Part shown: positions 6,412-7,374 of the stretch, piece after piece
Position numbering within the stretch: position 1 is the first letter of the stretch
Layout: each line of letters begins with the position of its first letter
Origin: a virus
Strand: one strand, 5' to 3'
Length of the DNA: 64,000 nt
Virus record (IMG/VR): IMGVR_UViG_3300032562_000003
Location: 1-64,000 of that record
Position numbers and translations under genes: made by a program
Notes under the pieces: model-generated
What the model saw: only the letters and a program-made list of their open reading frames with translations
Told to the model about the DNA's origin: nothing
Database searches by the model: none

Positions 6412-6440
6412 TTGACATTCGTTAGCGTCTTTGATATAAT
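6412..6440 (+). promoter_or_regulatory. Perfect-consensus sigma70 promoter of the large RNA/tRNA operon
   Basis: TTGACA (6412-6417), 17 nt, TATAAT (6435-6440), preceded by an AT-rich UP-like stretch (AATAAAAAATTTAAAAAC). It is the best promoter in the window; +1 is expected near 6447. Confidence 0.92.
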
Positions 6441-6449
6441 GAAATATAA

Positions 6450-6479
6450 GCTGAGAAATCAGCGATCTTTGACAATTTA
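6450..6479 (+). promoter_or_regulatory. boxB-like hairpin plus rrn-like boxA
   Basis: GCTGA-GAAA-TCAGC (6450-6463) is a perfect 5-bp hairpin with a GNRA tetraloop. It is followed at once by GATCTTTGACAATTTA (6464-6479), which differs at only a few positions from the E. coli rrn boxA (known: TGCTCTTTAACAATTTA). The order boxB then boxA, just after +1, is that of rRNA leader antitermination sites read by NusB/NusE. Confidence 0.7.
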
Positions 6480-7021
6480 GAATAAGAATTGGGGGCATAG
6501 CCCCGATAATGAGATAGCCTTGAGCAATTGAGGTTAAAGCAAGGTTTCCTATAAACTTGCGCCACCAATGGTCTCTCTATGCAAGCACGAACTAATCCGA
6601 AAGGATCCGTCCCTAGAAAGGCGGTAGTCGATAAGTTAGGTGTGTTGTCCGAAAGGATGTGTCACAGAGCCAGTCGGTGAGTGATAAGAGGGTTGGCGCC
6701 CTCATGACATGCAGCCAAACTAACGAACGATGAAAGTTAACGTGTAGTTATTGAGTCTGACCCTGCAAGGAAAGGCAAGATAGCATTTCGAGCGAAGAAG
6801 GTTTCATAAGGAGCCGGACCCGCAAAGAAACATTGAGTATCCCGCAAGGGATTCGGTAATGACCAAAGACGTTCGTTTAAAGCTGTAATCTCAGGCTGTA
6901 CAAAAGATAAATAATATTAGACTATTTTGATGAACACACTTACGAAAAAACTAAAAACGGTGATCATTGATCGGCCGGTGACGTTGAGATTAAGAAAGTG
7001 TGTTCTTCTAAATAGTTTAAT
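6480..7021 (+). ncRNA. Large ornate structured RNA (GOLLD/ROOL-like candidate)
   Basis: About 540 nt with no conserved ORF and many GNRA-capped hairpins: GGGGCATAGCCCC near 6492, CCTTGA-GCAA-TTGAGG near 6518, GCAAG/CTTGC near 6539, TCC-GAAA-GGA twice (near 6600 and 6650), GAGGG/CCCTC near 6690, CCC-GCAA-GGG near 6845. It ends in a long stem: 6916-6927 pairs with 7010-7021 (12 bp, one G-T) and 6932-6941 with 6996-7005 (10 bp perfect). The initiator tRNA starts 3 nt later. Large RNAs next to tRNA genes in phages are known as GOLLD and ROOL; I cannot confirm either class without a covariance search, and it could be new. Confidence 0.65.
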
Positions 7022-7023
7022 GT

Positions 7024-7103
7024 CGCGGGGTAGAGAAGTCCGGTCGTTCTCGCCAGTCTCATAAACTGGAAATCGGTGGTTCAAATCCAGCCTCCCGCAT
7101 CCA
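7024..7103 (+). tRNA. Initiator-type tRNA-fMet (CAT)
   Basis: It begins CGCGGGG like bacterial initiator tRNA, with the diagnostic C1-A72 mismatch (3' strand TCCCGCA), then T and encoded CCA. The anticodon arm CCAGT-CTCATAA-ACTGG is perfect. The three G-C pairs typical of the initiator anticodon stem are not complete, the D-loop is long, and the T-arm (GGTGG-TTCAAAT-CCAGC) has one mismatch and an extra base. It is cotranscribed with the large RNA. Confidence 0.8.
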
Positions 7104-7220
7104 TTCAGTTTCTTGTTTCTGTAAAAAACAATTGGTGGAGCCCGGTACTGCTGTATCGGTCCTATTAGGATAGAGGGTTGTAAGTGACCTGTACTTGACT
7201 GGGAACTTTCGAAGATTTAT
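7104..7220 (+). other. tRNA-operon spacer, possibly degenerate RNA
   Basis: 117 nt between the initiator tRNA and tRNA-Gly. It contains a small TCCTA-TTAGGA hairpin and a TTGACT (7195-7200) without a clear -10. I could not fold a tRNA from it (no T-arm, no CCA). It may be spacer or a decayed tRNA. Confidence 0.3.
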
Positions 7221-7295
7221 GCGGGTGTGGTATAGGAGATGTGCCCTAGCCTTCCAAGCTAGAGAGGACCGGAGCGTTGCCGGCCACCCGCTCCA
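7221..7295 (+). tRNA. tRNA-Gly (TCC) with a non-canonical T-loop
   Basis: Acceptor GCGGGTG/CACCCGC and CCA encoded. Anticodon arm CTAGC-CTTCCAA-GCTAG is perfect, giving anticodon TCC. D-stem GGTA/TGCC. The T-arm is ACCGG-AGCGTTG-CCGGC: the loop has 7 nt but lacks the TTCRA consensus found in every other tRNA here. It may be a specialised or decaying tRNA. Confidence 0.75.
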
Positions 7296-7299
7296 ATAT

Positions 7300-7374
7300 G
7301 CTTCCATAGTATAATGGTCATTACAATGCGTTGCCAACGCGTGGAAATCGGTTCGATCCCGATTGGAAGCTCCA
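7300..7374 (+). tRNA. tRNA-Gly (GCC)
   Basis: Acceptor GCTTCCA/TGGAAGC, D-stem GTAT/TTAC-like, anticodon stem GCG/CGC around TTGCCAA (anticodon GCC), canonical T-arm ATCGG-TTCGATC-CCGAT, discriminator T, CCA encoded. It lies 4 nt after the first tRNA-Gly; together they read all Gly GGN codons except possibly GGG. Confidence 0.9.

Follow-up and report, generated by a model that had tools for sequence, protein, structure and literature searches.

A conserved rRNA-operon-type leader precedes a phage GOLLD RNA that lacks most of its 3' domain

The locus described here raises a double question: which RNA does a virus encode behind what looks like the leader of an rRNA operon, and which factors would transcribe it? 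The window analysed covers the opening 64 kb of a virus record of 258,859 bp. A first-pass annotation, made without database searches, had seen in it a consensus promoter, a boxB hairpin, an rRNA-type boxA, a gene-free structured stretch and three tRNAs, and had proposed that the phage transcribes a giant non-coding RNA through host-style antitermination. All of these elements were recovered where that annotation had placed them, the three tRNAs by ARAGORN (Table 1). The promoter is one of just two that reach 12/12 among 15 promoter-like sites in 3.4 kb, where 7.6 sites are expected, and judging by spacing the transcript is expected to start close to the hairpin. No plus-strand ORF of at least 40 aa lies between boxA and position 6926, and the RNA stretch beats every shuffle in folding (z -4.5). 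Across the whole record the boxA core TCTTTRAMAAYT is present at two places, in this leader and inside a protein-coding gene, where we rejected it as another leader.

Table 1. Features of the locus, in window coordinates
Feature	Position	Strand	Remarks
Neighbour gene, 188 aa	5433..5999	+	Conserved; marks the locus in relatives (52 related viral loci)
Sigma70-type promoter, TTGACA-17-TATAAT	6412..6440	+	12/12 match, 17-nt spacer, TG before -10
boxB-like hairpin, GCTGA-GAAA-TCAGC, GNRA (GAAA) loop	6450..6463	+	Covariation over 13 leaders
rrn-type boxA, GATCTTTGACAATTTA	6464..6479	+	Top plus-strand boxA score of the window
GOLLD 5' domain, complete	6489..6849	+	90/91 consensus pairs kept in the window copy
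Deletion junction, direct repeat CGCAAGG	6843..6849	+	~424 nt absent relative to L049
3'-domain remnant, profile positions 404-462, tail GTAATCTCAG	6843..6901	+	nhmmer, 39 bits
Long interrupted hairpin between RNA and tRNA-Met	6914..7023	+	z -6.0; arms kept in relatives
tRNA-Met (CAT)	7025..7099	+	ARAGORN, Rfam
tRNA-Gly (TCC)	7221..7295	+	ARAGORN
tRNA-Gly (GCC)	7300..7374	+	ARAGORN, Rfam

The RNA does not identify itself readily. At gathering thresholds, an Rfam search of the window returns tRNAs alone and no large RNA, and neither the sequence nor the model of ROOL (RF03087) finds a match there. A low-threshold cmscan gives GOLLD (RF02032) at 6685-6897 with 16.1 bits, against a gathering score of 150, and in this alignment, which ends at 6897, the conserved 3' tail AAAGCUGUAAUCUCAGGCU is matched near-perfectly. 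Weak Rfam matches to S774, MIR2599 and Lacto-rpoB, all far under their cut-offs, were discarded. Relatives of the locus were gathered by a search with the protein encoded upstream, for which no Pfam family matched, and about a dozen of the related loci carry a homologous RNA at the same position. These same-locus relatives are GOLLD: 12 of the 15 loci scanned reach 185-213 bits. Intact copies consist of a 5' domain of ~380 nt, a 12-nt gap and a 3' domain of ~460 nt, the part that Rfam models, and in aligned close relatives the long stem and tRNA-Met follow behind.

Nucleotide searches in phages gave little beyond this. With the whole unit the matches are mostly tRNA, and S-CRM01 was rejected as a GOLLD relative because its match is tRNA only; with the RNA alone, Sinorhizobium phage Phosso is the sole match, and its locus holds a GOLLD. 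Scanning 350 genomes from a sample of one class, Bacilli, yielded zero GOLLD matches, but the control was likewise silent. We file the window RNA as a GOLLD derivative of natural origin that lacks the 3' (ring) domain, and not as a full member, because it falls under the Rfam score. It shares with GOLLD a homologous 5' domain and 3' tail, a phage genome and adjoining tRNAs, and differs in lacking ~424 nt that make up nearly all of the Rfam-modelled 3' domain. The giant non-coding RNA of the first-pass annotation thus stands as a structured RNA with no conserved reading frame, but it is no new class.

The 5' domain, which precedes the part known to Rfam, is shown to be a genuine RNA structure by massive compensatory change in the stems of the relatives. 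An alignment of 18 sequences contains 91 consensus pairs, of which 60 have both partners changed; pairing holds in 97.7% of cells, a value that 0 of 500 shuffles reach. In the window copy several helix pairs are maintained by pair types unique to it. At nine columns, however, this copy departs from a base that all 17 other sequences share, so that it may be under slightly weaker constraint. R1, a covariance model built on the domain's first 104 positions, matches ~390 nt ahead of GOLLD in roseobacter, Mesorhizobium and Sinorhizobium phages, with E values from 2e-7 to 5e-14. Such matches in the GOLLDs of cultured phages indicate a widespread GOLLD 5' domain and not a peculiarity of this phage. 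In the cryo-EM structure GOLLD forms a 14-mer cage, each half-shell of which has a cap built by 5' regions and a ring built by 3' regions (PMC12286853). The 5' domain of the window would be predicted to fold as it does there.

Two further observations concern the surroundings of other GOLLDs. In cultured phages tmRNA genes lie near GOLLD (L165, L166, L168, L170 and L172; a permuted tmRNA model matches too), and an intact GOLLD in L148 has immediately upstream of it, at 1829-1956, pieces of another GOLLD 3' domain that resemble a decayed tandem copy.

The junction offers clues to how the 3' domain was lost. L049 carries two copies of CGCAAGG flanking the ~424 nt that are absent from the window, and the blastn alignment with it falls into two pieces, q67-450 and q444-539, that have 7 nt in common at this point. 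The missing segment includes a tRNA-like element embedded in the GOLLDs of relatives. Four other metagenome contigs (L012, L036, L018 and L019) have the identical junction; two of them differ from the window elsewhere, L018 being 99.95% identical and L019, whose flank has diverged, 99.88% identical across 5.9 kb. Identity to L049 is 96% in the tail and 75% in the 5' domain, which points to recombination.

With a complete cap domain and no ring domain, the RNA could at most achieve partial assembly, or else be decaying. The case for decay is serious, and we put its chances only a little below even. It would mean that recombination at CGCAAGG removed the 3' domain and left a non-functional remnant, in which only the promoter and the tRNAs are still useful and the leader, still a signal of the rrn type, is a carry-over from intact GOLLDs. 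The deleted form is known from a single sequence type, and the unequal identities to L049 indicate that the fusion may be recent; the nine altered invariant columns fit decay as well, as does the fate of other relatives, in which GOLLD has been lost or swapped for an endonuclease-like frame (L040, L048). Against this, all but one of the helix pairs are kept, several by pair types that are the window copy's own, the promoter is a full match and the leader is intact, and the deleted form occurs in several metagenomes, in two cases with differences elsewhere. At L048 (5868-7052) the promoter, hairpin, boxA and first ~50 nt of the 5' domain have been kept, a frame for a GIY-YIG-like endonuclease takes the place of the rest, and both the stem and the tRNA-Met that follow are intact.

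Whatever became of this copy, the leader can be followed in the relatives, which keep the order promoter, hairpin, boxA. To keep the survey free of circularity, we took GOLLD loci that had not been fetched by boxA sequence and whose upstream part exceeded 760 nt; clustering at 90% identity left 30 of them. A boxA was called when a matrix drawn up from what is generally known of rrn boxA scored at least 12 within 301-760 nt upstream of the 3' domain. Our results show a boxA upstream in 20 of these 30 non-redundant GOLLDs and on the opposite strand in 0 of 30, as compared with a mean of 0.48 of 30 loci for column-permuted matrices and 4.7% of 460-nt background windows from the same loci (Fisher p ~1e-17, uncorrected for kinship). 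The remaining 10, roseophages and a Mesorhizobium phage among them, have no boxA at this threshold. DSS3P8 and MD18 are roseophages in which no boxA was detected. A hairpin of at least 5 bp lies in the 24 nt before boxA in 17 of the 20 boxA-bearing GOLLDs (33% at random). Over 13 leaders all five pairs of the stem are doubly changed, with covariation that 0 of 500 shuffles equal and a loop that is mostly GNRA. Furthermore, a promoter of at least 10/12 is found just upstream of boxA in 18 of 22 leaders, the window included, versus 3.8% of random windows, and in most leaders the -10 ends 22-30 nt before boxA. Conservation of boxA in relatives, compensated stems and the lack of a conserved frame were the points on which the initial proposal could have failed, and on each of them the data agree with it.

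The boxA sequences themselves vary. The published gammaproteobacterial consensus is GYTCTTTAANA (PMC5725501); L067, L124 and L047 match it exactly, and GATCTTTGACA of the window has two differences from this consensus, which may not be that of the host. Searches with the exact sequence were uninformative: the 16-mer of the window is found in viral contigs mostly at unrelated places, and the 17-mer GAATTGGGGGCATAGCC at 15 places in bacterial genomes, by estimate no more than chance.

Downstream of the promoter of an rrn operon come boxB, boxA and boxC. The antitermination complex requires boxA and needs no other signal to form, and a role for this complex in the folding of rRNA has been proposed (PMC10250234). 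The window leader resembles that of an rRNA operon in its order, in the boxA core, in the hairpin directly before boxA and in having untranslated structured RNA and tRNAs behind it; it differs in that it drives a phage RNA and not rRNA. GOLLD, being long, untranslated and elaborately folded, has the same need as rRNA. This record, which may be incomplete, has no detected gene for NusB, NusG or the beta subunit of RNA polymerase; together with the host-type promoter, this means that host factors would be used. We consider it likely that the GOLLD derivative is driven by an rRNA-operon-type leader that recruits host NusB/S10 antitermination. Transcription from the host-type promoter would start near the GNRA hairpin, with boxA immediately after it; host NusB/S10 would bind boxA and, with other Nus factors, convert RNA polymerase to its rrn antitermination form. 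The polymerase could then run through this long untranslated RNA and on through the tRNAs unhindered by Rho; the boxA that it holds may help the nascent RNA to fold. In full-length relatives the product is GOLLD, the cage-forming RNA. The survey suggests that most of the GOLLD phages examined may borrow the host machinery for making rRNA in this way. The part of the original idea that concerns the leader has thus gained support from its conservation across many phage GOLLDs, and NusB binding and antitermination are what we infer from it.

A leader of this kind might instead have nothing to do with Nus factors, the hairpin being a 5' stabiliser against decay and the boxA-like stretch a conserved linker or part of the GOLLD fold. 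A hairpin at the extreme 5' end can indeed protect transcripts, and protection of this sort is well known. We nevertheless find this unlikely, as boxA is not within the 5' domain that is paired, and three leaders fit the published boxA consensus exactly. In addition, the same leader precedes two types of 5' domain, that of the window and that of L102, L105, L121 and their relatives, which R1 does not match; it therefore looks tied to transcription and not to one RNA fold.

There is even less to be said for a leader that serves a phage-encoded protein like lambda N, bound to the hairpin as at a nut site, and we regard it as quite improbable. In lambda nut the order is boxA, then boxB. Here the hairpin comes before boxA, in the window and in 17 of 20 others, as in rrn operons. 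The likeness to a lambdoid nut site extends to a phage, a boxA and a small hairpin of GNRA type that resembles boxB, the target of N in lambdoid phages (PMC10250234). No N-like protein was identified, such proteins being short, diverse and easily missed.

That the deletion is an assembly artefact, and that the phage really has an intact GOLLD, can be set aside as extremely improbable even though a 7-nt repeat forms the junction and the data come from metagenomes throughout, since the record holds no other GOLLD sequence and a junction shared by four other IMG/VR contigs, two of them with differences elsewhere, is no accident of one sample's assembly.

If recruitment of Nus factors by the leader is true, it would explain how a long untranslated phage RNA is made despite Rho and would link GOLLD to the Nus machinery, which has a proposed role in rRNA folding; the predictions that follow are directly testable. 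Few natural RNAs are as large or as elaborate as GOLLD, for which we know of no function. In the natural truncation the two domains of the cage are parted, which could reveal the role of the 5' domain on its own. A bolder reading, possible but doubtful in our judgement, is that the host rRNA antitermination complex transcribes and folds phage GOLLDs as a dedicated assembly line, and that the cap-only GOLLD of this phage assembles into a ring or half-shell cap with no closed cage.

The rrn-type leader does not extend to all giant phage RNAs. ROOL, likewise a large, cage-forming phage RNA near tRNAs (PMC12286853), has a boxA-like 5' start at 2 of 8 loci (L174 and L185, from Bacilli genomes). Phage ICP1 makes an abundant non-coding RNA of ~800 nt, also large and with no assigned function (PMC7567579); unlike the present phage, ICP1 is without tRNAs, and no boxA was found near the promoter of its large RNA. 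With ICP1 as a counterexample, a boxA leader is no rule for all giant phage RNAs, and we limit the claim to GOLLD. A literature search, which the original GOLLD papers fell outside, found no paper joining boxA and GOLLD and none on giant phage RNAs with antitermination. An rrn-type leader on GOLLD is probably new.

Downstream of the RNA, the 22-bp interrupted stem that the first-pass annotation had taken to close the structured RNA is real but closes no RNA: it is a separate hairpin, past the GOLLD 3' end and immediately 5' of tRNA-Met. It is probably a processing site, at which the RNA would be cut from tRNA-Met. Arms resembling GATGAACAC and GTGTTCTTC are found both in this hairpin and in a stem of L042 and L046 that lies just upstream of GOLLD and encloses a tRNA; such a stem may be a shared processing element. 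An initiator identity had been assigned to the tRNA-Met. By eye it looks like an initiator in its CTCATAA anticodon loop and its 5' C facing A, but its anticodon stem is without the three consecutive G-C pairs.

Two further features of the phage lie elsewhere in the window. Homologues of ClpP and ClpX are encoded on the minus strand (36449-37039 and 40129-41325), and frames at 3584-3901, about 14170-14460 and 35731-36309 share stretches encoding NGDRHWYLNGQRHREDGPA-type repeats.
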